Shown here in pieces: positions 8,665 to 30,691 of a DNA stretch of 30,691 nt. Origin of the DNA: a virus; the IMG/VR virus record IMGVR_UViG_3300030012_002028, positions 1 to 30,691 of that record; one strand, given 5' to 3'. A model generated the notes under the pieces. The model was given only the letters and a program-made list of their open reading frames with translations. It made no database searches and was not told the origin of the DNA. Numbering within the stretch: the stretch's first letter is position 1; the number at the start of each line of letters is the position of its first letter. The position numbers were made by a program, and so were the translations under genes.

Positions 8665-9111
8665 ATGACAGCAACACTTGGCAATGGAGCCACGTTCACT
8701 TGGGGGTCAAACGTGATTGGGCAAATAATGTCCATCAGTGGCCCGTCACAAGAGCGAAATATCGTGGATGTCACCACCTTGGGTAGCACTCAAACCCATA
8801 ATGTCACTGGTGGCAACACTCAAGCCACACCAACCCGCGCATTTCTTGGTGGTTTTGCAGATTCGGGCGAAGTCACAGTTGAACTTCAAATGGGGTTGAC
8901 TGATGGTGGTGGCGATGACCAGAAGCACGAAGGACTTGTAGATGACATGGTTGCCGGTACTCTTCGTTCAGCAACGATTGTTTTGGGTGCTACCGACACC
9001 ATAACCTTCTCGGCTTTCATTACCAGCTTGGGCATCAACAATGCAGTGGATGAAGTTGTAACCATGTCCGTTACCTTTAAGGTAAGCGGTGACGTAACAT
9101 TGAGCGCATAA
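8665..9111 (+). CDS. Major tail tube protein, copy 1
   Basis: Tail tube subunit (lambda gpV/TP901-1 type) of 148 residues. It has the tube-fold landmarks 'GQIMSISGPSQERNIVDVTT', 'FADSGEVTVELQM', 'ITFSAFITSLGINNAVDEVV' and 'MSVTFKVSGDV'. It polymerises as stacked hexamers around the tape measure. The next gene is clearly homologous. This copy has an extra loop 'STQTHNVTGGNTQATP' absent from the other. Confidence 0.85.
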   Translation: MTATLGNGATFTWGSNVIGQIMSISGPSQERNIVDVTTLGSTQTHNVTGGNTQATPTRAFLGGFADSGEVTVELQMGLTDGGGDDQKHEGLVDDMVAGTLRSATIVLGATDTITFSAFITSLGINNAVDEVVTMSVTFKVSGDVTLSA

Positions 9112-9121
9112 AGGAAATCTG

Positions 9122-9550
9122 ATGGCTATTAGAATTGGTAATGGTGCAAAATTTAAATTTGGTTCGACCCCAACGGTTGTAGGAGAAGTAATCTCTATCT
9201 CTGGGCCAAACTTTGAACGAAGTTCGGTTGACACTACAAACCTTGCAACGACTACTGCTCGCACTTTCGTTGCGGGGATGTTTGATCCGGGTGAAATTAC
9301 CCTAGAATTGAACTTCGACAACAACGATGCTGGTCAGGTTTTGGTTGAAGCGGCTGTTGCAACTGGGGCAGAAAACAATTGGGAAATCGAGTTTGCGGCT
9401 ACAACGGCAGAAGGTGCAGATCCGTTGACATTCTCAGGAACCTGCATTGTCCAAAGTTTCAGCAATAATATTGCTATGGATGAAGCGGAAACCGCAAGCG
9501 TTACCTTGAAGGTTGTTAAGGCAATCAGCACGGATGCGGACGCTTCCTGA
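9122..9550 (+). CDS. Major tail tube protein, copy 2 (tandem paralogue)
   Basis: A 142-residue paralogue of the preceding gene, aligning almost end to end: 'IGNGAKFKFGS', 'VISISGPNFERSSVDTTNL', 'MFDPGEITLELNF', 'LTFSGTCIVQSFSNNIAMDE' and 'ASVTLKVVKAI' each match copy 1. The ribosome site AAAGGAAA at 9112 is strong, so this copy may be the more abundant subunit. Phages with two tail-tube genes may alternate or use one as a minor or tip form; which applies here is unknown. Confidence 0.85.
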   Translation: MAIRIGNGAKFKFGSTPTVVGEVISISGPNFERSSVDTTNLATTTARTFVAGMFDPGEITLELNFDNNDAGQVLVEAAVATGAENNWEIEFAATTAEGADPLTFSGTCIVQSFSNNIAMDEAETASVTLKVVKAISTDADAS

Positions 9551-10205: not shown

Positions 10206-12533
10206 GTGGCAAGCATCAAAGCACTACATATTGAGATCGGCGCGCGTGTATCGGGCTTCACCCGCAAAATGCGAAAGATTCGTCGTGATCTGAGACGCAT
10301 GCGAAGAGATGCCAAACGCATGGCAAGCAGTTTCGTCCAAATGGGCAAACGAGCAGCAGTTGGCGTTGGTCTGATTGGTGCAGGCATGGTGGCAGCAACC
10401 AAAAGATTTGCAACATTTGAAGCCAACCTATTACGGGTACAGGCACTGACGAACGGCACAGAAAAAGACTTCAACGCTCTGAAAGCAACTGCGGAGCGGA
10501 TGGGTATTACCACTGCATTTACCGCATCAGAAGCGGCAGAAGCAATGGTGAAGTTGGCCCAGCAGGGTCGGACAACCAGTCAAACCATGTTCATGCTCCC
10601 GAAGGTTTTGGACTTGGCTGTAGTCGGTGTTTTGGATTTGGATGAGGCAGCTCGTCTTGCTGGTGTGACACTCAACCAGTTTGGGCTTGGTGTAGATGAG
10701 ACAGAGCGAGCGGCTGATGTTCTTGCTAAGGGTGCTTCTGTATCTGCTACAACTGTACGAGAGTTGGGGGAAGCACTGACCTACGCTGGTCCACTTGCCA
10801 AGAACATGGGCTTCTCCCTGGAAGAAACGGTTGCTGTTCTTGCTGCGTTTGCAAATGTTGGTGTTGTGTCTGGTCGTTCTGGTCGTGCGTTTGCTGCGGT
10901 CATTGCAGAACTTGGTACTGAGATTAGGGAGCAAGGTCTGATCGGTGCTTTGGACAAACTGGCAAAGTCCGGCAAAACTGCTGACCAACTTATGACAGAA
11001 CTGAACCGGATTGCCGGTCGTTCTGTTGGTTCACTCCGAGAAGTGACAGGCGAGATCCTAGAGATCAATGACAGACTTGTTCAGGCCGCTGGAACGTCTA
11101 AGAACTTTGCAGAGAAAGTCCTGTCTAAGACAGAGGGTGCTTTTGTTCGTCTGCGTTCTGCTGCTGACGGTCTGATTAACTCTTTGGGTGAAACATTTGC
11201 CCCGTTTGTAATTGGTGCGTTTGAAGAAATCACAAACTCGCTCAAAACGAGTGTTGAGTTTATGAAAGAATTCAGACAAGAAATGGGCTTTACAGAAGAA
11301 GCTGGTGCTGCGATGGCACAAAGCATGCTTGCCGGGGTTGCTGGCGTGCTTGATGCTTCTGCCGCCATAATGAAAAATGTTAATCAGGTAACTGGAACGA
11401 TTGACATTTTCTTATCTGCATTCAGAGTTGTTGGAGTGATACTTGCTGGCATCACCTTTGCAATATCCAAAGCACTTGCAGCAATAGTTAATACTGCAAA
11501 CACTCTACTCAACGGACCATTGTTTAGGGTTGGCGACATGAGCGGGTTCGTCAACGAGATGGAAATCGAAGCAGATGCAATGGAAATAATGATGGATGAA
11601 TTGCTGACTGATATCGGCAAGTCTTTCGATCATATGGCGGAAGGGGCTGGTAGTGCAACAACCGACTTCATTGAGAACTTAGGTAGTAATTTTGAGCGTA
11701 TTCGTGCGAAGTTTGAGGATTTCAAACCGCCAGAAGCACCAGAAGATCCAAGCAGAACTGGTACACCAGACTTAGGTGGTGGTTTGGTTGTAGATCCCCA
11801 GATCAAGACTTTGTTTAACCAATTCCCTGACTTGCACGAAGAGTTGATGAAGATTCCTGCTGTTCTGCATGAGGCGGAAGCAGCACTTGGCGGGTTCCTG
11901 ACCCCAGATTTGATTCGAGATTTGGTGGATCAGGGCATCACAATAGAAGGTCTGAATGACTTAGAAAAGAAGTTTGGTGAGATTCACGCTGCTATGGATG
12001 CTGGTTTCTTAAGCAAAGATTTTGGGGAAGCAGCCTTCACAAACATTCTCAAGGGTGAGGGACTGACATTTGAACCACCTGAGTTCACTGAGCTTCAAGG
12101 TTTGCTTGGCGAGATGGCAGCGACCCAAAGTCAAAGGCTTGAACTTGCGAATCTTGCAGGTGCGTTCGGTACTGACTTTGATCAGATTATGAACTCTGAC
12201 AAGATCACAGGTCAGGTTGTAGATGAGTTCACGACACTCTTTGAACAAATGTCTCTGGCTCTTCAAGAAGGTGTGATTGACCCTGCTAGGTTTGCAGATA
12301 TCAACCTAGAGTTGCAGCGTCAAATCATTGAAACCGCCAAGGGTGAGGCGGAAGAGTTAGACGATCCCACAAAGGGGTTCACCGATTCATTGCAAACTGC
12401 TCTTGGTGCAGTGAAGGTTGATCCATTTGCTGAAACCAGTCAGAAGCGTACAATGAAGGCATCAGAAGAGACTGCAAAAGCAACCCAGGAAATCGCTAAA
12501 AACACCAAAGGTTTGGGAAGCATTTTGACATGA
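10206..12533 (+). CDS. Tail tape measure protein
   Basis: Sets tail length and may pass into the cell with the DNA. The N-terminus is a basic helix (residues 15-45, many Arg/Lys) followed by a hydrophobic stretch 'AAVGVGLIGAGMVAA'. Residues 65-330 match the TP901-type phage tail minor domain: 'TAFTASEAAEAMVKLAQQG', 'AARLAGVTLNQFGL', 'ELGEALTYAGPLAKNMGFSL'. A second hydrophobic region lies near 405-435 ('FRVVGVILAGITFAISKALA'). At about 0.15 nm per residue, 775 residues predicts a tail near 115 nm. The GTG start at 10206 has AAAGG 7 bases upstream. Confidence 0.93.
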   Translation: MASIKALHIEIGARVSGFTRKMRKIRRDLRRMRRDAKRMASSFVQMGKRAAVGVGLIGAGMVAATKRFATFEANLLRVQALTNGTEKDFNALKATAERMGITTAFTASEAAEAMVKLAQQGRTTSQTMFMLPKVLDLAVVGVLDLDEAARLAGVTLNQFGLGVDETERAADVLAKGASVSATTVRELGEALTYAGPLAKNMGFSLEETVAVLAAFANVGVVSGRSGRAFAAVIAELGTEIREQGLIGALDKLAKSGKTADQLMTELNRIAGRSVGSLREVTGEILEINDRLVQAAGTSKNFAEKVLSKTEGAFVRLRSAADGLINSLGETFAPFVIGAFEEITNSLKTSVEFMKEFRQEMGFTEEAGAAMAQSMLAGVAGVLDASAAIMKNVNQVTGTIDIFLSAFRVVGVILAGITFAISKALAAIVNTANTLLNGPLFRVGDMSGFVNEMEIEADAMEIMMDELLTDIGKSFDHMAEGAGSATTDFIENLGSNFERIRAKFEDFKPPEAPEDPSRTGTPDLGGGLVVDPQIKTLFNQFPDLHEELMKIPAVLHEAEAALGGFLTPDLIRDLVDQGITIEGLNDLEKKFGEIHAAMDAGFLSKDFGEAAFTNILKGEGLTFEPPEFTELQGLLGEMAATQSQRLELANLAGAFGTDFDQIMNSDKITGQVVDEFTTLFEQMSLALQEGVIDPARFADINLELQRQIIETAKGEAEELDDPTKGFTDSLQTALGAVKVDPFAETSQKRTMKASEETAKATQEIAKNTKGLGSILT

Positions 12534-13387
12534 GCGACAAGGTTGAATACGACGTTTTTGAAAAGTCACGTTCTCTGAGCGTTACCTCTGAATCAAGAGA
12601 GTTGAGGCGAAATTTCATTGTGAAGCAAGTGCTTCCTGATGATGGATCAACCCCAGACTACCCAGTTGATTTTACCGGCATCTTTAACGCTACCGGCATG
12701 CAATACAACCAAGAGCTGCCTGATGAACCCGGTCTATATCTGACTACTTACAATGTCAACAGTTCAGACGAAGGTACATTCCAATGGGATGTCGAAGGCT
12801 GTTACAAGCCAGATCAAGTCATCAACGATGGTGGGGGGGAGACTGGTGGGCAGTTCGATCAAATCAACTCTGATATCGAAGTCCTGTTCTTGGACACTTG
12901 GCGTGTTGGGCCGTTTGACAATGAGAAGCCAGCAGAGGCTGATGATGGTGCGATCAGTGACAATGATGACATTGGTGGCGAACCTGTTGATGTTGCGGGT
13001 GAACCTGTAACCCGAGCCATTACAACTCAATCAACAGAGATCACTCGTAGATTCTCTTACTTTCCATCTTTTGAGTTGACGGTCGCTCGGTTCTTGGCTG
13101 GGACTCGGAACAGAGATTCCTACTTGGGTGTACCGCCCGGATTCATGCTGTTTGAAGGTGCAAACCTGTCGCGTGAAGGTTCTAACACCTACACCATGCG
13201 TTATAGATTCACCTACGACCCGATCAAGCACCAGCGACAAGTACCCAAACGACACGCAAATGGTGATGTGGTGACAGAAGAAGTTGGTGTTGGTATCTCA
13301 AAAAGCACTGTTGCTAAGACTGTGATTTGGAGACAACCCTTCCCGCAAGAATCCATGTTTGCGGTTCTTGGAGTTGCACCCTTCTAA
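12530..13387 (+). CDS. Tail-tip protein of unknown function
   Basis: A 285-residue protein not recognised from sequence. It begins 'MSDKVEYDVFEKSRSLSVTS', has an acidic low-complexity middle (residues 135-160: 'EADDGAISDNDDIGGE') and a beta-rich second half with 'TRRFSYFPSFELTVARFLA' and 'YTMRYRFTYDPIKHQ'. It follows the tape measure with an ATGA overlap, where distal tail or baseplate hub proteins normally lie. A virion role is inferred from position only. Confidence 0.7.
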   Translation: MSDKVEYDVFEKSRSLSVTSESRELRRNFIVKQVLPDDGSTPDYPVDFTGIFNATGMQYNQELPDEPGLYLTTYNVNSSDEGTFQWDVEGCYKPDQVINDGGGETGGQFDQINSDIEVLFLDTWRVGPFDNEKPAEADDGAISDNDDIGGEPVDVAGEPVTRAITTQSTEITRRFSYFPSFELTVARFLAGTRNRDSYLGVPPGFMLFEGANLSREGSNTYTMRYRFTYDPIKHQRQVPKRHANGDVVTEEVGVGISKSTVAKTVIWRQPFPQESMFAVLGVAPF

Positions 13388-13920
13388 TGCCACAGTATCC
13401 ATCCATCTCGAATGGGCTAGGCAAACTTACGCCGGGTTTGTGGAATCGTTTGATGACCATGCTCGCAGCGTTTGAGGGTTCCAACGCCAGCATCAATGGA
13501 CTCCGCAACGCAACCAAACTTGACCTGCGGCAGACCATTCTTCCAGGTCGGTTCTTCTTTGCAGAGATCAAAGGGAACACTTCTTTAGCAACCAACAGAT
13601 TCAAGTATGAGTTTGACCATGTTGATCCTATCGACTGGGCAACTCCGACAGATGGTGACTTTGAAGCAAGAGATACTGGTTGGGGGGCAGAAGAGGGTGG
13701 CGGTACTGTCTACGCATTCAATCTCATGGAAGTGAACAATACTGCTACCGAGATCAATCCGGGGGTTGGCGTTGGTTCAGGCAGTCCGTCAGGAAGTACG
13801 GTTTCAATCGTTCCAATCAGAGATGGAAGTATTGTGATTATGTGGCCTGCGATCTCTGACGATGGTGAACAGGTTTTCTTCTTTCAGGCTGAAAACGCCA
13901 TAGCCGTGTCCTGCACATGA
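13387..13920 (+). CDS. Virion-associated hypothetical protein near tail tip
   Basis: A 177-residue product. A short N-terminal helix ('GLWNRLMTMLAAFEG') is followed by a beta-rich domain with 'GRFFFAEIKGNT', 'VYAFNLMEVNNTATEINPG', 'VSIVPIRDGSIVIMWPA' and 'QVFFFQAENAIAVSC'. Similar 'NL.E.NN....G.G' proteins occur next to tail-fibre genes in aquatic phages, from memory and unnamed. ATG 13387 is chosen because it overlaps the previous TAA (TAATG); the longer frame would run inside the preceding gene. Confidence 0.7.
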   Translation: MPQYPSISNGLGKLTPGLWNRLMTMLAAFEGSNASINGLRNATKLDLRQTILPGRFFFAEIKGNTSLATNRFKYEFDHVDPIDWATPTDGDFEARDTGWGAEEGGGTVYAFNLMEVNNTATEINPGVGVGSGSPSGSTVSIVPIRDGSIVIMWPAISDDGEQVFFFQAENAIAVSCT

Positions 13921-16682
13921 CAAGTCTGATACAAAAAGCATGCTGTTGCGGGGAAGAAGATAGCGACTATGTAGAGTTTAAACTACCGCCCCGCTGCACT
14001 GATAAGTCATTGGGTTGTGAGTGTGGTTCAGACGATCCCTATGAATACAGGTCTACAGCTCATGGTTGCGGTGCGGTTGATCCAAGAAATTTTGAATGCG
14101 TTGCGACTGGTGAAACAGATTGTCCTGAGCCCGGATCAGACGATTGTTCTGCCTGCGGTGCTGTCTACATGGATAAGGAAGAATTCCTAGAAACAGTTTT
14201 GCACGTTTCAGACGGAGTTACTTGGAATCCTAGTCGATCAGAAATAATTGAACGGATACACGGTTGGTGGCAAGCCGGTGGTAGCCTTTTTACGACTGAA
14301 ACATGCACAGGCGACAACCCAGCAACAACAAGAATATCCCGATGGGATGACTCTAGTGCCTGCACCGCTACAAACAACTTAAACAGAGTCTCGTCTACCT
14401 GTTTTGCACCGGGAGAGATGATAAACACAGATTCACGGAACCCACTTGATAGTGGAACAATTCTTTCAACTGCTGCGGTCGGTGGTAATAACACTCTTCC
14501 AAAAGACATGAGTGCTGGGAATATTAGTGAGTTGAATGTCACTACAGGTGATGCTTGGTTTGCTATCACATTTAGGGTCGAGTCTGGGGCTACTACTGGT
14601 CGTAGGAGAATCTTCGATCAGGGTGACGCAAACTTTGGTCTTATTCTTGATGGAACAACACTAAAGGCTTGCTTTGGATCAGAAGCAAACAGCGCACAAG
14701 AAGCATCTCTTAGCACTGGTGTTTGGCATACCGTGGTGGCTCAAAGGTCGGGCGGCACAGTTACAGCAAGACTAAATGGCTCGGACTTTTCCACAAACAA
14801 TGTTTCCAACTCAGACAGTATCAGCACATCAGAACAATTCAAGATCAACACCATTGGTAGTGGCGATGCAAGGTTTCGTGGTCAGTATGGAGATTTGATT
14901 GTTGCTTCGGGTTTGTTAGACACTGACGATGTTGAAAGAATGGAAGGGTATCTAGCCCACAGATTCAATATTGAATCGAGTTTGCCATCATCACACCCCT
15001 ACAGGAATGAAGTACCACAAATCACGGACATGACCCCGAGGGCATTCAATTTCGCATTGTCGGGTCACATTTTTAAGATCAATCTCAATGGCAGCGTTGT
15101 GCCTTGTCAACTTAGTGGCACTAGTTGTGTCGGACCTGGTTTCTTCTCAATCAGTAACGATTGCAAAGTAGTTCGGCGAGATGATCTGATGAAAGATTGT
15201 GCCGGGAACATCATGTTCTACGGACCACAACACCCAAGTTCTGTTAACCATTTTCCGGGATCCCCTTTTGTTTTCCCTGGCAATCCCTTTGAATGGGCCT
15301 GCGCATTACGCTTTTGGACAGACACTACAGGTTGCCCAACTATCAACTTTTGCCCGCAAGACTGCACTGATCCTGATGCTGAATATGCAGACAATCTGCT
15401 GTTTGTCTCGTCGGAGTGGGCAAAGGGACTGTGGCATAGAGATTGTGACACATGCGAGAACTGTGATCCGATTAACGCGACAAGCAAAGTATTGCTGACG
15501 GACGAGACTGGTTGCCAGGGTGGTAAGTCTTACACAATGGGCAGTGGTGTTGAGTGGCAAGACCCTTTCAACGCATTGTTCGGTTTGTCAAACTACACCA
15601 ACCAGACGAGATGTAGTCAAGAACTTGATGGGATGGCTACAAGTGATTGTTGTGGGCAGGATGGTAATCGTAATGCACCATTCCTAAATCAAACACCAAA
15701 CTCTCTTGGACCCGACCCATCCTGTTCTGCAACCTGCTTTGATCTTAATGATCTTCAAAATGTTACGACCAATGCACCTTTTGACACTTGTTTGGAATCG
15801 GAGCCTGGTGGAGCAGGTAACTACTGCAACACTTCTGGCACTGTGAATTCATGTTGTTTGGATGAAGGCCAGAACGCACCAAGCACATACACAGTCAATA
15901 TCCCAGAGTTTTTTAGAGAGGACGAAGATTTCCCTTGTGGTGGTAGTAGTCAATGCTCTTGTGTGTTCCTACGCAAATGCAGCACAAACTCCGTATGCGG
16001 AGATACTTTTCGATGTCGGGCAGATCAAATTACCTGTCCCAATGGTGTGTCATCTCAATATTGTGGATGTAACGACTGTGGTGGTAGTGATCCAGATGAC
16101 TTCTGCCCGTGTTGTGAGTCTGGACCCAACCCGCCTGATGGATGCCCCGGATGTCCTGTGAGTGGTTACACATACATCTGTGATCTCACAGAACAAGGTT
16201 TAAATCGTGTGCCATCATTCTCCGTCGTGGTTGACAAGGTTGTGTCTGGCACTGGATATGTAGCACAAGGGGTTGTTGGTGTAGACCGTGGTTTTCTTGT
16301 GTCAACAGAATTTAGTGCTGCAACCATTGGAAGTGCTTGTGCGCCAGCAGGGTGTCCAGACCCGCAAAATTTGGGATGTCCTGAATTCGGGTTGCCAATC
16401 AGGAATGGAATCACACGGGTCACATTGGGTTGCTTTATAGACCAATCCGACATCGCAAACAACTGGCCTCGGTACTTTGAAGTAGGTTTGGCATACAATA
16501 TTTTCCAACGTGATCCTGACGAGCCTGAATACGTTGGTCCCTGTCAATCCGAGGCTGGCAGCTTTGTCTCGGTTAAGTATCGCAAACTTGCAACTAGTCT
16601 TGATCCGACCGGCACTTACACTTTGGTGACTAATTCAGGCAACGCTTCCCCCCCCTACCCAGCAACAGTAACGGTTAGTTAA
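13917..16682 (+). CDS. Large Cys-rich tail adhesin with LamG-like lectin domain
   Basis: A 921-residue probable receptor-binding fibre. Residues 1-85 hold 11 Cys, starting with a CCC triplet. A laminin-G/ConA-like jellyroll spans about 185-365: 'ITFRVES', 'RIFDQGDANFGLIL', 'VWHTVVAQRSGG', 'IVASGLLDTDDVERMEGYLA', closing with the 'GYLAHRF....LPSSHPY' signature. From about 445 to 820 it is dominated by Cys-Gly-Asn/Asp clusters such as 'CGCNDCGGSDPDDFCPCC'. I count about 57 Cys overall, suggesting disulfides or bound metal. The C-terminal 100 residues look beta-rich. The lectin module recurs in the gene at 17895. Confidence 0.78.
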   Translation: MTSLIQKACCCGEEDSDYVEFKLPPRCTDKSLGCECGSDDPYEYRSTAHGCGAVDPRNFECVATGETDCPEPGSDDCSACGAVYMDKEEFLETVLHVSDGVTWNPSRSEIIERIHGWWQAGGSLFTTETCTGDNPATTRISRWDDSSACTATNNLNRVSSTCFAPGEMINTDSRNPLDSGTILSTAAVGGNNTLPKDMSAGNISELNVTTGDAWFAITFRVESGATTGRRRIFDQGDANFGLILDGTTLKACFGSEANSAQEASLSTGVWHTVVAQRSGGTVTARLNGSDFSTNNVSNSDSISTSEQFKINTIGSGDARFRGQYGDLIVASGLLDTDDVERMEGYLAHRFNIESSLPSSHPYRNEVPQITDMTPRAFNFALSGHIFKINLNGSVVPCQLSGTSCVGPGFFSISNDCKVVRRDDLMKDCAGNIMFYGPQHPSSVNHFPGSPFVFPGNPFEWACALRFWTDTTGCPTINFCPQDCTDPDAEYADNLLFVSSEWAKGLWHRDCDTCENCDPINATSKVLLTDETGCQGGKSYTMGSGVEWQDPFNALFGLSNYTNQTRCSQELDGMATSDCCGQDGNRNAPFLNQTPNSLGPDPSCSATCFDLNDLQNVTTNAPFDTCLESEPGGAGNYCNTSGTVNSCCLDEGQNAPSTYTVNIPEFFREDEDFPCGGSSQCSCVFLRKCSTNSVCGDTFRCRADQITCPNGVSSQYCGCNDCGGSDPDDFCPCCESGPNPPDGCPGCPVSGYTYICDLTEQGLNRVPSFSVVVDKVVSGTGYVAQGVVGVDRGFLVSTEFSAATIGSACAPAGCPDPQNLGCPEFGLPIRNGITRVTLGCFIDQSDIANNWPRYFEVGLAYNIFQRDPDEPEYVGPCQSEAGSFVSVKYRKLATSLDPTGTYTLVTNSGNASPPYPATVTVS

Positions 16683-17062
16683 TGACAGAATTGAATAAAG
16701 TCAAATGCGAACACTGGTCAGAAGGCGAATGCAATATGGGCTTCTATGGGGGCAGACCTTCTTACGGTACTTGCACGACCCATTGCCCTGTGTATCTAAA
16801 AGCAAACGGCAAGACCATCAAATACCACACTCAGACTAAGGACCACAAACCAAGAAAAACTTGGGATCAAATAGTTGAAAGTGAAAAGAAGCGCAGGGCT
16901 ATGACCCAGACGGGTCTTGGTGACACAGTGAAGTGGCTGATAGAGACGGTTTCGTTTGGGCGTATCAAGCAGAAGAAGGGATGTGGGTGTGCCAAAAGGC
17001 AGTCTTGGCTGAACCGTCACTTCCCCTACCGATTACCGAAATGGTTGAAAAAGGGACAGTAA
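16682..17062 (+). CDS. Small Cys-containing protein between adhesins
   Basis: A 126-residue protein with four N-terminal cysteines (9, 17, 31, 35 approx.) in 'CEHWSEGECNMGFYGG' and 'TCTTHCPVY', then a basic linker, then 'GLGDTVKWLIETVSFGRIKQ' and 'GCGCAKRQSWLNRHFPY'. The last motif occurs as a free-standing or fused tail in many phage proteins near fibres (recollection). Metal binding is plausible. The function is unknown; an adhesin accessory or assembly factor fits the position. Confidence 0.7.
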   Translation: MTELNKVKCEHWSEGECNMGFYGGRPSYGTCTTHCPVYLKANGKTIKYHTQTKDHKPRKTWDQIVESEKKRRAMTQTGLGDTVKWLIETVSFGRIKQKKGCGCAKRQSWLNRHFPYRLPKWLKKGQ

Positions 17063-17893
17063 ATGGCAATTGTGACTTGGACTGGTACAACTAGCGCAGA
17101 TTGGAACACCGGCACAAACTGGTCAACTGGTTCAATTCCAGGGTCTTCTGACACCGTGATTTTCAACGGATCAAGCAAGACAATCAGCGGTACATCAATC
17201 CCGGCGGTCGCAGAAATCAAGATTCTTGATGGCTTCACCGGCTCATTTGGGGTCAAGGGTGGCAACCTTGATGTAGACGCTACCACTGTGTTTATCAAGT
17301 CGCCTACAGCTCCAGTTTTTATATCTGGCGACTTCACCACGGTCATCATCACTGACAACGACGGAACTGCGGATTCAATCAATATCGGTTCCAACTCGAA
17401 CATAACATCGTTGAGGTACTTGGGTGGGGCTGGCACAGTCACGCTAGAAGGTTCAACCCTGACAAACCTAGAAGTTATTGGAACGCCCAGAGGGATTGTC
17501 TCAATTCCATCTACAGGCCCAGCAGTAACTACAATCACTATTGACTCTGGACAAATAAACACTTCTGCAAATGTCACTACAGCCAACATCAGTGGTGGAG
17601 AAATAACAGTCAAGGGTTCTGCTAATCTGACCACTGCCAACATTCGTGGCAAGTCTGTCCTGTCGTTTGAATCTTCCGGCACACTGACTACTGCTAACGT
17701 ATTTGACAAGCCAAGTGTTTTGACCCTGGAAAACAATGTCTCTGCTGGGGCCACTTTGACTGATGTAAATCTCTACGACGGGACGCTAGATGACCGATCG
17801 GGTAGCGGGGCTACGACTTACACAAATGGTGTGAGCGTTCGTGGGCAAGGAATTGTCCGGGCTGATGTCAACAGAACTCTTGTGGTGACTTGA
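17063..17893 (+). CDS. Beta-solenoid tail spike/fibre protein
   Basis: A 276-residue protein composed of short Thr/Ser/Val/Ile strands, consistent with a right-handed beta-solenoid. It opens with 'WTGTTSADWNTGTNWSTG', a Trp-rich cap, then 'IPAVAEIKILDGFTGSFG' and repeated 'TTANI.G' rungs (residues 190-230). The last half of the protein at 17895 is homologous, including the 'L.GFTG..G' motif. Likely a trimeric adhesin or depolymerase-like spike; no catalytic residues were identified. Confidence 0.75.
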   Translation: MAIVTWTGTTSADWNTGTNWSTGSIPGSSDTVIFNGSSKTISGTSIPAVAEIKILDGFTGSFGVKGGNLDVDATTVFIKSPTAPVFISGDFTTVIITDNDGTADSINIGSNSNITSLRYLGGAGTVTLEGSTLTNLEVIGTPRGIVSIPSTGPAVTTITIDSGQINTSANVTTANISGGEITVKGSANLTTANIRGKSVLSFESSGTLTTANVFDKPSVLTLENNVSAGATLTDVNLYDGTLDDRSGSGATTYTNGVSVRGQGIVRADVNRTLVVT

Positions 17894-17894
17894 T

Positions 17895-19454
17895 ATGCCT
17901 TTGTGGACACCCAACGATCTTCCTAGCGGACATCTTTCTGGCTGGTATAAGGCTGACATAATCAAAGGGGTTGCTGATGGAGCAAACTTGAGTTCTTGGA
18001 GTGATTCTTCTGGCAATTCAAATACATTGACGCAAAGCACAGTTGCGGCACAACCAGCTTTCATTAAAAATGGCATCTACAACCGACCACTCGTAAGGTT
18101 TGACAAAGATGTGTTCCCCGGTGACAACTTGCTCGATGCTGATCTGGGTGGGGACTTTGAGCCAGGAACAGGCGACTTCTACATAGCGTTAGTTGCAAAG
18201 TTTACTTCTTCTGGAACTCAGTTCGTTATGACGAAGGCAACCAGTGGAACTAGGGGGCTGAACCTGTTCATCTCAGGGAGTAACTTGATATTCAGGCCAC
18301 AAACGCTTGGTATTACTACGAACAACATCAATCAAAGTTCTGTGGTTGATAGTGAATTTCATACCATTGTTTGCCGCAGAGTTACCGGTGTTCTTGGTTC
18401 TGCGTTTGATGGTTTAGCATTTACGACAGATGACGGATCAAAGATCAATAACGGTGATCTTGATAATGATGCAAACTTCAACATTGGTTCAACTTCTACT
18501 CAGGGACTAGATACTGACATGGATCTGGCAGAGGCTTTGATTGCTGTTGGCACATTGACTGATGCCGACATGCAACGAATCACTGGTTATCTGGCTCATA
18601 AATACGACTTGACAGCAAACCTACCCAGTGACCACCCCTACAAATCCTTACCACCAACAGTTAGCATCCCAACCGTTACATGGATTGGTGGCGGTAATCA
18701 GGCTGATATAACTGATCCAGATAACTGGAGTGATGGCCTTGAGCCAAACGCAAACAAGCGATGTCTGATTGCAGACCGTTCGGACTCAATTACATTTGGC
18801 AACCTAGTGTGCAAAGAATTGTGCGTGTTAGAAGGTTTTACCGGCAACATCGGCACTACATCTAGTGCGTTGAATGTGACGGCAGATAATGTGATTATCA
18901 AAGCACCACTGGCCCAGACCTATCTTGACTTGGATGTGGATGACACTACATATTTGGAAAACGCTGGACTCGGTTGCAAACTGGAAGGTGACTCCCTCAA
19001 CCTTCATTACAGCTCGCCAACAAAAGCAACGCTTGAGATGGACAGTCTGTCACGAGTGACTGTGGAAGGTGCTGGCAGGCTTGCGACTCTCCATCTTGAC
19101 AAGGGCTTGCAAATAAATGTTGGCCCATACGGATCAGTCAAGATCAATGGTGATGTGACAACCGTGAATGTCAGTGGGGGCAAGGTGTTCTGTGGAGATC
19201 ACGTTGTCAACACGATCAACCTGAACGGCGGTCATGTGGCATATGGGGGCAGCGATCTCACCACCCTGAATATTTACGCTGGCGAGTTTGACTTGGGGGG
19301 GAATGAAAATACTCAGGTCGATATCACGAACCTGAACCTGTATGGGGGCTTCGTTGATTTGCAAAACGCGATCTCTGCGGCAGAAGTCACAAGCCTCAAG
19401 ACTTTTGGAAATGGGCGGATCAGGCTTCCCCTTGGGACAACCACGGTAAGTTGA
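17895..19454 (+). CDS. Chimeric adhesin: LamG-like lectin plus beta-solenoid
   Basis: A 519-residue protein made of two modules also present in its neighbours. Residues 1-255 are a lectin-like jellyroll: 'GWYKADIIKGVADGANLSSW', 'FHTIVCRRVTG', 'RITGYLAHKYDLTANLPSDH'. The same closing signature is in the 921-residue protein. Residues 262-519 are a solenoid with the Trp cap 'WIGGGNQADITDPDNWSDG', then 'LCVLEGFTGNIGTTSSALNV' and rungs such as 'TTVNVSGGKV', 'NTINLNGGHV' and 'TTLNIYAGEF'. It is the last structural gene before the terminators, the usual place for a receptor-binding protein. Confidence 0.77.
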   Translation: MPLWTPNDLPSGHLSGWYKADIIKGVADGANLSSWSDSSGNSNTLTQSTVAAQPAFIKNGIYNRPLVRFDKDVFPGDNLLDADLGGDFEPGTGDFYIALVAKFTSSGTQFVMTKATSGTRGLNLFISGSNLIFRPQTLGITTNNINQSSVVDSEFHTIVCRRVTGVLGSAFDGLAFTTDDGSKINNGDLDNDANFNIGSTSTQGLDTDMDLAEALIAVGTLTDADMQRITGYLAHKYDLTANLPSDHPYKSLPPTVSIPTVTWIGGGNQADITDPDNWSDGLEPNANKRCLIADRSDSITFGNLVCKELCVLEGFTGNIGTTSSALNVTADNVIIKAPLAQTYLDLDVDDTTYLENAGLGCKLEGDSLNLHYSSPTKATLEMDSLSRVTVEGAGRLATLHLDKGLQINVGPYGSVKINGDVTTVNVSGGKVFCGDHVVNTINLNGGHVAYGGSDLTTLNIYAGEFDLGGNENTQVDITNLNLYGGFVDLQNAISAAEVTSLKTFGNGRIRLPLGTTTVS

Positions 19455-25637: not shown

Positions 25638-25795
25638 GATGCGGTCAATGCGATACCGAACTCATTCACGGTGGTAGCCATGATGGCGATGACTACGGGC
25701 GTGACTCATTCTTGATCGTCAATAATTACACATGCCCAGAGTGCCATGTGTTGGTTCTTGAACACATACCGAAAACAGAAGATGATGATGATTGA
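25634..25795 (+). CDS. Small zinc-ribbon protein
   Basis: A 53-residue protein with two knuckles, 'CGQC' (residues 3-6) and 'CPEC' (34-37), separated by 'IHGGSHDGDDYGRDSF' and ending in acidic 'TEDDDD'. It is typical of small phage zinc ribbons of unknown role. It starts in an ATGA overlap and its own last codons contain the starts of the next gene, so the three genes are coupled. Confidence 0.65.
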   Translation: MRCGQCDTELIHGGSHDGDDYGRDSFLIVNNYTCPECHVLVLEHIPKTEDDDD

Positions 25796-26813
25796 GTTTG
25801 TTGCTGCTGCACTTACTTTCAGCTCAGGCCCACCCACTGATCCTGATGCAGTGGCAATGTGGATTGATGACTTGGGGCGTTTGACACCGTTTGGTCGAAC
25901 ATTTGATGTTTACATCCAAACCGGGTTTGACCCGGACTTCTCATACCCCAACGGTGATCCACGCCGCCCGTACATGATCGGTAGTACCCGTGGGAGCGAA
26001 TCGCCAACTCGTGCATTTGGATGGGCTATCGAAGGGGACATATTCAAGAACAGCAGGCCAGACCACTTGTATCCGTGGCTAGAGAACTGCCAAGAGTGTA
26101 TTGACTACTGGACAATAGACACAGGGATTGAGTGTCCTGTTCCCGGTGCTTACTGGGACTGCATTCAAGCCAACCCCTACCAGCGTTGGATGTATCTGGG
26201 TATGAACTTCACCCCGATCAACTGGGTCTTTGAAGGCCCACAGGGATGCTGTCCCCGGACGGCTGATCTCGTTGATCTTGAGTACGCATGGTGTGACTCT
26301 TGGATTCTGCATGGCCCACTCGGCAAGAAATACGGCGACTCGCAGCAATACAAGTACCCGTTGGTTCAGCAGCAGCACAAGGATCTGATTGATTCACCCG
26401 TACTTAAGTTCTGGCCTCATCGTAAGGACATAGTAGGGGAACGATGCTGCTCTGCTCCATCGCAGAATGACTACGGTGATTTGATCCGTTGGAACGCCGA
26501 TGTTGATTGGATGAGTGAGAAATGGCCTGGTTCGTTTCACATCGCTAGGTTCACTGGTCCCAACTACTTCTCGTCTGGTGGCGTTGTTCGCTTTGCTTGT
26601 GGCAACAACCATCCGTGCGAGCCGTCGTATTACTCAGTGAACTACTACCCAGATAACTCCTGCCCATCTGACTTGAATGAGGATGGGATGGTTGGCTTCC
26701 AAGACTTGCTGCAAGTGCTTGGTGATGTTGCAGGATTCAAATATCACCCACAAACTAACAATGGCTTCAATGCCATTATCAAAGTTCTTTCTGAGTGGGG
26801 GGATTGTGGGTGA
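25788..26813 (+). CDS. Secreted-like protein with dockerin/EF-hand-like C-terminus
   Basis: A 341-residue protein rich in Trp, Tyr, Pro and paired Cys ('GCCPRT', 'ERCCSAPS'), suggesting an extracytoplasmic fold. The N-terminus has a short hydrophobic segment ('MIEFVAAALTFSSG') without basic residues, a poor signal peptide. The last 50 residues, 'CPSDLNEDGMVGFQDLLQVL' then 'NGFNAIIKVLSEWGDCG', match the two-helix dockerin type I/EF-hand ending widespread in Planctomycetota. Asp/Asn positions D-N-D (in 'DLNEDGMVGFQD') could hold calcium. Three in-frame ATGs (25782, 25785, 25788) compete as start. Confidence 0.65.
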   Translation: MIEFVAAALTFSSGPPTDPDAVAMWIDDLGRLTPFGRTFDVYIQTGFDPDFSYPNGDPRRPYMIGSTRGSESPTRAFGWAIEGDIFKNSRPDHLYPWLENCQECIDYWTIDTGIECPVPGAYWDCIQANPYQRWMYLGMNFTPINWVFEGPQGCCPRTADLVDLEYAWCDSWILHGPLGKKYGDSQQYKYPLVQQQHKDLIDSPVLKFWPHRKDIVGERCCSAPSQNDYGDLIRWNADVDWMSEKWPGSFHIARFTGPNYFSSGGVVRFACGNNHPCEPSYYSVNYYPDNSCPSDLNEDGMVGFQDLLQVLGDVAGFKYHPQTNNGFNAIIKVLSEWGDCG

Positions 26814-29371: not shown

Positions 29372-29458
29372 GCGCAATACCTGCGTCCGATAATATTATG
29401 TAACATTATAAGACCCTGGAATGTTGCGACCTGGAACGCCAAAAATGCTGCAGCTTTA

Positions 29459-29656
29459 AGCAGCAGCGAGCAGCGAGCAGCAGCAGGAGCAGCAGCAGCC
29501 AGCAGGAGCAGGAGCAGGAGCAGCGAGCAGGAGCAGCCAGCAGGAGCAGCCAGCAGGAGCAGCGAGCAGCGAGCAGGAGCAGCCAGCAGGAGCAGCAGCG
29601 GGAGCAGCGAGCAGGAGCAGCCAGCAGGAGCAGCCAGCAGGAGCAGCGAGCAGGGG
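29459..29656. repeat. AGC-rich 13-bp minisatellite, array 1
   Basis: Nearly 200 bases built of AGC, AGG and CAGC steps, with many recognisable 13-bp units AGCAGCCAGCAGG and AGCAGCGAGCAGG. It shows no G+C-rich coding signature beyond low complexity. It lies just beyond the end of the 29708-30444 operon. Confidence 0.9.
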
Positions 29657-29684
29657 CAATAAATAAGCCCGCTTTCGCGGGCTT
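29657..29684 (-). terminator. Terminator of the right-hand leftward operon
   Basis: Read on the minus strand: AAGCCCGC-GAAA-GCGGGCTT followed by ATTTATT. The stem is 8 bp with a GAAA tetraloop. It sits just downstream of the gene ending at 29708 and protects the minisatellite and regulatory region from read-through. Confidence 0.82.
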
Positions 29685-30519: not shown

Positions 30520-30610
30520 CTTCTCTAGCGGTATTTCGCAACTTTCCCAAAACCGCGTTTTCAAGCTCAAAACCCCGAAATATCCAAAACCCGGCTACCT
30601 GGCACGCATA

Positions 30611-30691
30611 AAACGCAGCCAGCAGCAGCAGCCAGCGGAAGCAGCCAGCGGAAGCAGCCAGCGGAAGCAGCCAGCGGAAGCAGCCAGCAGC
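30611..30691. repeat. 13-bp minisatellite, array 2, running off the window edge
   Basis: Four exact copies of a 13-bp unit, GCCAGCGGAAGCA, start at 30631, 30644, 30657 and 30670, preceded by AGC repeats and continuing at the edge. The unit differs from array 1's AGCAGCCAGCAGG mainly by A/G changes. No gene lies between 30571 and 30691. Confidence 0.92.

Follow-up and report, generated by a model that had tools for sequence, protein, structure and literature searches.

Tail proteins, whether related or not, have homologous domains in common, and domains of receptor-binding proteins were recently exchanged across distant phages (Smug et al. 2023, PMC10684548). The distantly related Alteromonas phages A5 and V22 have tail-fibre modules in common (PMC10579305), and some tail fibres contain ConA-like domains, such as gp22 of the Acinetobacter siphophages fLiAba02/03 (PMC11058221). 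The locus described here resembles the first of these systems in the exchange of domains within phage receptor-binding proteins, the second in the transfer of a host-recognition module among marine phages that are only distant relatives, and the third, by description, in the presence of a ConA-like jelly roll on a siphophage tail-fibre protein. The differences are as follows: PMC10684548 is a broad survey, whereas we describe one slot, where the flanking solenoids are 83-94% and the lectins 42-45% identical, in uncultured phages without a close isolate. In A5 and V22, fibre and chaperone move as genes, whereas here about 200 residues are replaced inside a gene and the lectin also occurs as a separate gene.

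In sequence, the lectins of the proteins of 921 and 519 residues described below and of the phage contig L005 match positions ~380-674 of phrog_10356, a virion structural protein family of 852 positions; the lectin part alone matches, the solenoid does not. By profile, giant proteins of Verrucomicrobiota (Opitutales; L096 and others) belong to the same lectin family, which is marked by a GYLAH motif. Their lectins come in many tandem copies in open reading frames (ORFs) of up to ~4000 aa; these proteins differ in being cellular, their identity across the full domain does not exceed ~35%, and a solenoid of the window type was not found in their loci. In genome contigs of Opitutales and related organisms (L096, L161, L147) the ORFs with tandem lectin copies measure ~3700-4000 aa, with at least six to eight copies in L096 and L161. 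That receptor-binding proteins of phages exchange domains is known; new here is a lectin-solenoid family with an exchange slot. A lectin replaced in an otherwise nearly unchanged adhesin is a useful natural experiment: several close phage pairs differ mainly in the lectin, the same lectins recur in a second architecture, and the set is suited to testing whether the lectin alone fixes glycan or host specificity in uncultured phages. Since the module borders are defined, function can be tied to them.

Layout of the tail module

The stretch of DNA analysed, called the window in the following, comprises 30,691 of the 31,025 bases of IMG/VR virus record IMGVR_UViG_3300030012_002028. Terminase, portal, and HK97-type capsid genes were identified in it; the source is an uncultured tailed, siphovirus-like phage. 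The tape-measure gene is followed by genes for proteins of 285, ~177, 921, 126, 276, and 519 aa, which all lie on the same strand and nearly touch each other (Table 1). The 276 and 519 genes end the tail module, in an order that is conserved in relatives. The ORFs of 921, 276, and 519 aa lie where the first-pass annotation had placed them. No family was matched by the 285-aa protein in Pfam and PHROG scans. The 57 cysteines of the 921 protein are unusual in a phage tail protein. Elsewhere in the window, two adjoining, similar-looking genes of ~145 aa (8665-9550) may represent a duplicated major tail protein, where the family scan covered the first gene and assigned it to major tail protein families. 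CAGC-rich tandem arrays of low complexity (29450-29666 and 30582-30690) lie towards the right end of the contig.

Table 1. Features of the tail module, given in window coordinates, and the observations on which they are based
Feature	Position	Strand	Basis
Tail tape-measure protein	10206..12533	+	PhageMin_Tail 8.5e-33; PHROG tape measure 3.4e-58
285-aa tail-module gene in distal-tail position	12530..13387	+	adjoins tape measure; order kept in L014, L023, L033, L055
~177-aa tail-module gene preceding the 921 gene	13387..13920	+	order kept in L014, L033
921-aa Cys-rich (57 Cys) tail-module protein with lectin module	13917..16682	+	ORF; orthologues in relatives
Lectin module of the 921 protein, residues ~100-370	14214..15026	+	519-type profile; phrog_10356; Laminin_G_3 below cut-off
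Small Cys-containing protein of 126 aa, encoded between 921 and 276	16682..17062	+	ORF
276-aa stand-alone beta-solenoid with Trp-rich N-terminal cap	17063..17893	+	homologous to 519 residues 259-519
519-aa lectin-solenoid fusion protein	17895..19454	+	AlphaFold2 mean pLDDT 85, pTM 0.74
Lectin (jelly-roll) module of the 519 protein, residues 1-257	17895..18665	+	BLASTP, shuffles, AlphaFold2, Foldseek, profiles; phrog_10356 2.3e-22
Approximate exchanged block in the 519 lectin, residues ~40-240	18012..18614	+	drop in DNA identity to relatives B and C
Beta-solenoid module of the 519 protein, residues 258-519	18666..19451	+	BLASTP, AlphaFold2, profiles

Two modules and their predicted folds

The first-pass annotation had described the 519 protein as a lectin module resembling one in the 921 protein plus a solenoid resembling the whole 276 protein, and had suggested comparing the pairs with shuffled sequences, by profiles, and by structure prediction. 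The two-module composition was borne out by BLASTP, shuffles, and profiles. The lectins of the 921 and 519 proteins gave a BLASTP hit of 67.8 bits (E 6e-16, 25% identity over 186 aa) and a Smith-Waterman score of 196, compared with a mean of 41, a standard deviation of 6.0, and a maximum of 74 for 1000 shuffles (z ~26). For the solenoids of the 276 and 519 proteins, the corresponding values were E 3e-16, 28% identity over 269 aa, and a score of 221 (mean of 1000 shuffles 48, maximum 90, z ~21). Profiles built from one member of each pair recognized the other: a 519-type lectin profile containing no 921-type sequence matched residues 100-370 of the 921 protein with E 7.6e-34 (best of 1000 shuffled proteins 0.02), and a profile of 276-type sequences only matched residues 258-518 of the 519 protein with 2.7e-17; the best shuffle reached 0.004-0.02 for the two module profiles. 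The comparison of families by hhalign gave 3e-35 for the lectins (519-type versus 921-type) and 1.3e-17 for the solenoids (276-type versus 519 C-terminal). The negative controls (921 versus 276, 921 versus the 519 solenoid, and 276 versus the 519 lectin) scored at the level of shuffles. The shared signatures reported previously, GYLAH......LPS.HPY and a Trp cap with L.GFTG..G, were both found; the borders had to be corrected. Residues 185-365 are too short for the lectin of the 921 protein, which starts near ~100 and ends at ~370 (Smith-Waterman alignment from ~114 to 370), and the 519 protein divides at ~257/258 without remainder rather than into 1-255 and 262-519.

The AlphaFold2 model of the 519 protein, computed with 25 sequences (mean pLDDT 85, pTM 0.74), predicts a concanavalin-A/LamG-like jelly roll closed by a helix (residues 223-236), followed in the C-terminal half by a series of beta-strands consistent with a solenoid. 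This part of the structural comparison thus agrees with the module assignment; for the 921 protein the pLDDT was 32, and from that model nothing but a similar strand order was noted. GYLAH is located in the closing C-terminal helix and the linker LPSDHPY comes next, which is why the motif looks structural and not like a ligand site. With Foldseek, jelly-roll domains of lectin type were found among solved structures (E ~1e-6 to 1e-5), and also ConA-like phage proteins; these fold matches are at about 10-26% identity. Judged by the model, the 519 lectin has the beta jelly-roll fold of the Concanavalin A-like/LamG superfamily. The placement rests on the fold, the phrog_10356 matches (lectin region only; 519 2.3e-22, 921 1.4e-13, L005 lectin 4.5e-22), and the profile-profile link. 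As no curated model scored above its cut-off, the family is termed ConA/LamG-like and is not filed as a Pfam member: the 519 protein had no Pfam match, and Laminin_G_3 matched the 921 protein at 1.3e-5 and 25.9 bits, below the Pfam gathering cut-off of 27.6. The solenoid had no significant match in PHROG, Pfam, or NCBIfam, the lectin-solenoid family none of full length in 50,697 phage records, and sequence searches of solved structures with both module profiles gave nothing meaningful. Foldseek matches to the lectin-like subdomain in the binding region of clostridial neurotoxins reflect the shared jelly-roll fold only (9-16% identity) and carry no information on toxicity. A protein of this lectin family in Pseudanabaena phage Pam2 (ON014754.1, 57607-57693) is annotated as botulinum neurotoxin type A; this jelly-roll domain seems to have been misannotated because of its fold.

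Age of the copies and exchange of the lectin

Wider scans yielded more than 300 relatives of the lectin in viruses, and two architectures dominate near the lectin-solenoid family. In the fused one, a 276-type solenoid is followed by the lectin-solenoid fusion at the tail end (the window, L002, L003, L004, L014, L023, L024, L033, L037, L177, L241). In the split one, which occurs in distantly related phage backbones, three genes code for a lectin (265-274 aa), a middle protein of ~409 aa, and a solenoid (293-305 aa), and this set adjoins the packaging genes. Of the two split phages in which the tail-end region was covered, L191 contains a Cys-rich protein, a small Cys protein (2225-2563) in the place of the window's 126-aa gene, and a stand-alone solenoid; L185 contains a Cys-rich protein and a solenoid. 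The Cys-rich protein (L191, 465-3377; L185, 337-3058) differs in size from the 921 protein and has a CCC motif near its start. As split tail ends carry a solenoid of their own, fused and split phages each have one tail-end and one lectin-associated solenoid. The whole 921-126-276-519 arrangement is common to three contigs (L002; L003/L007; L004/L008). L002, L003, and L004 are named A, B, and C in the following; 921 orthologues in these and in L055 are 50-87% identical, 276 orthologues in three close relatives 88-97%.

In the solenoid tree, each positional class forms one side of a branch, with support values of 100/99 for the 276-type (11 rows), the 519 C-terminal (10 rows), and the split solenoids, and of 100/100 for the tail-end solenoids of split phages; this tree does not resolve how the four classes branch relative to one another. 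Because each paralogue groups by itself across at least 10 phages, the duplication must be ancient, and it did not take place in the window genome: the trees indicate that the 276-type and 519 C-terminal solenoids are paralogues which split before at least 10 related phages diverged. The lectins of 921 and 519 type go back at least as far as this pair. The 921-type lectins constitute one clade on a long branch (100/100), which is not nested with the window's 519 lectin; together with 519-type and third-type lectins they group apart from the lectins of cells and of other viruses (SH-aLRT 94), and the tree does not resolve the deep order among these three types. The 921/519 lectin pair may stem from an old duplication or from two separate acquisitions.

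Recent shuffling, as read from identities and trees, took place between phages: the lectin of the 519 gene was swapped and the solenoid kept. Given as identities of 276-type solenoid/lectin/C-terminal solenoid in percent, the window compares with B as 92/45/94 (contig 3300030372_002816 gives the same figures), with C as 88/44/87, with A as 97/75/90, and with L014 as 49/60/28; L014 and L033 compare as 83/42/83. Thus, the C-terminal solenoid of the 519 protein is 87-94% identical in the three relatives and the lectin 44-75%, while the window's lectin shares 75% identity with the one that stands free in L005, a phage of another backbone. At the DNA level, the identity to B and C drops to ~37-60% across the lectin core, to which the drop is confined; it is mostly 70-90% in the 276 gene and mostly 75-96% in the solenoid part. 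In the lectin tree, the window's lectin groups with those of the split phages L005 and L012 (99-100% support) and the lectins of B and C group with others. Constraining lectins to stay together was rejected for the window, A, B, and C (p-AU 4.1e-31), for L014, L033, and L037 (3.8e-8), and for all fused lectins (3.9e-58). Architecture (fused, split, or other) changes 13 times on the lectin tree; on the solenoid tree there are three label changes. The split pairs behave alike, with 95% identity in the middle protein, 86% in the solenoid, and 39% in the lectin for L018 and L185, and 96%, 55%, and 34% for L012 and L185. L185 and L186 were assembled from separate metagenome samples and do not differ from each other across the swapped slot; this argues against a chimeric assembly. 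The domain histories of the 519 protein are incongruent between phages, as in a modular receptor-binding protein with domain exchange.

According to the first-pass annotation, receptor-binding units had been duplicated and fused within one genome. The modular assembly and the duplication of the solenoid pair were retained; the origin within this genome was not. A scenario in which the 519 protein arose recently, the 921 lectin and 276 solenoid having been duplicated and fused, would suit the presence of all three homologous pieces within 5.5 kb; the trees would also allow the lectins of 921 and 519 to share an old origin inside one phage-restricted group, and a solenoid duplication inside the fused lineage was not rejected (p-AU 0.52). 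However, the copies within the genome are 25-28% identical, whereas each shares 75-97% identity with the corresponding copy of another phage, the 276-519 pair is present in at least 10 contigs, the nearest relatives of the window's 519 lectin are those of other phages and not the 921 lectin, and a group of 921-type with window and A lectins had a p-AU of 0.03. We regard such an origin as improbable, and as a recent event it is refuted by identities, contigs, and trees. Considerably less probable still is that the lectins diverged by fast diversifying evolution of one gene. The core does vary more than the ends, also in close relatives, and the window and A are only 50% identical at residues 121-180; yet fast diversification cannot by itself bring a lectin close to one from another phage backbone, as seen in the groupings with split phages and the rejected orthologue grouping (p-AU 4e-31). 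Exchange and unusually fast divergence are told apart by the trees only, though very strongly. Variable lectin domains are known targets of diversity-generating retroelements. We give this mechanism next to no credence here: the lectins differ in whole blocks and not in scattered codons, the window contains no template/variable repeat pair (its repeats are of low complexity only, at 29.4-30.7 kb), and no obvious reverse transcriptase stood out on inspection of the list of its ORFs; the retroelement reading was rejected.

Putative location and function

We think it likely that the proteins are tail-associated glycan-binding adhesins built from two reusable folds, with a slot for lectin exchange. 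The folds are a ConA/LamG-like jelly roll and a Trp-capped beta solenoid, which would act as a rigid stalk or platform. The 519 protein is a jelly roll on a solenoid, and the 276 protein a second solenoid alone; the 921 protein, Cys-rich and encoded at the tail end, has a jelly roll that is older and divergent. Both solenoids are ancient paralogues and were inherited together. We infer that the lectin's two ends, which are conserved (MPLWTP...WYKAD and GYLAH...LPSDHPY), supply the homology for recombination, so that the core, presumably with the binding loops, can be replaced by versions circulating in other phages, and the solenoid would remain as a constant stalk. The donor pool would include phages with the same lectin as a separate gene. 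The most probable effect would be a change in the surface glycan bound, and possibly in host range. The labels adhesin and receptor-binding derive from gene position and predicted fold only; sequence by itself is no proof of sugar binding, which is putative for the lectin modules.

A location in the virion other than the tail has to be weighed, since PHROGs assigns the lectin family (phrog_10356) to head and packaging and the lectin-middle-solenoid set of split phages lies next to packaging genes; capsid decoration is for these reasons a live rival. We nevertheless judge it unlikely that the lectin-solenoid proteins decorate the capsid or act as enzymes and are not tail adhesins: the window's cassette directly follows the tape-measure and tail-end genes, the 519 protein lacks the catalytic ExDxxE motif of GH16-type glucanases, a reading which was rejected, and the solenoid matched neither a solved structure nor an enzyme family.

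A further and more tentative proposal concerns the two architectures. Distant phages of one host group might share a pool of lectins which plug into two chassis, the fused tail-end one and the free-standing one with middle protein and solenoid; the lectin would predict host or receptor independently of lineage, and a 355-aa gene, confined to phages and common to many of those considered here, would belong to the same host-specific set. This 355-aa protein (window 25746-26813) has a hydrophobic leader, many cysteines, and two dockerin/EF-hand-like C-terminal loops. It is ~63-90% identical across some 80 viral loci of otherwise different backbones, and a lectin of this group is present in 40 of 95 loci with the 355-aa protein. 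It had no relative in the species-genome scan, no match in an isolated phage, and no family match. For the dockerin-like tail, a single weak match came from 149 genomes of L121's phylum and none from 145 genomes of L096's phylum; relatives of the solenoid in the former 149 genomes were mostly matches to the Trp cap only. In some contigs (L225, L231, L238, L239, L240), the 355-aa gene is directly followed by a shorter homologue of ~278 aa, a tandem duplication.
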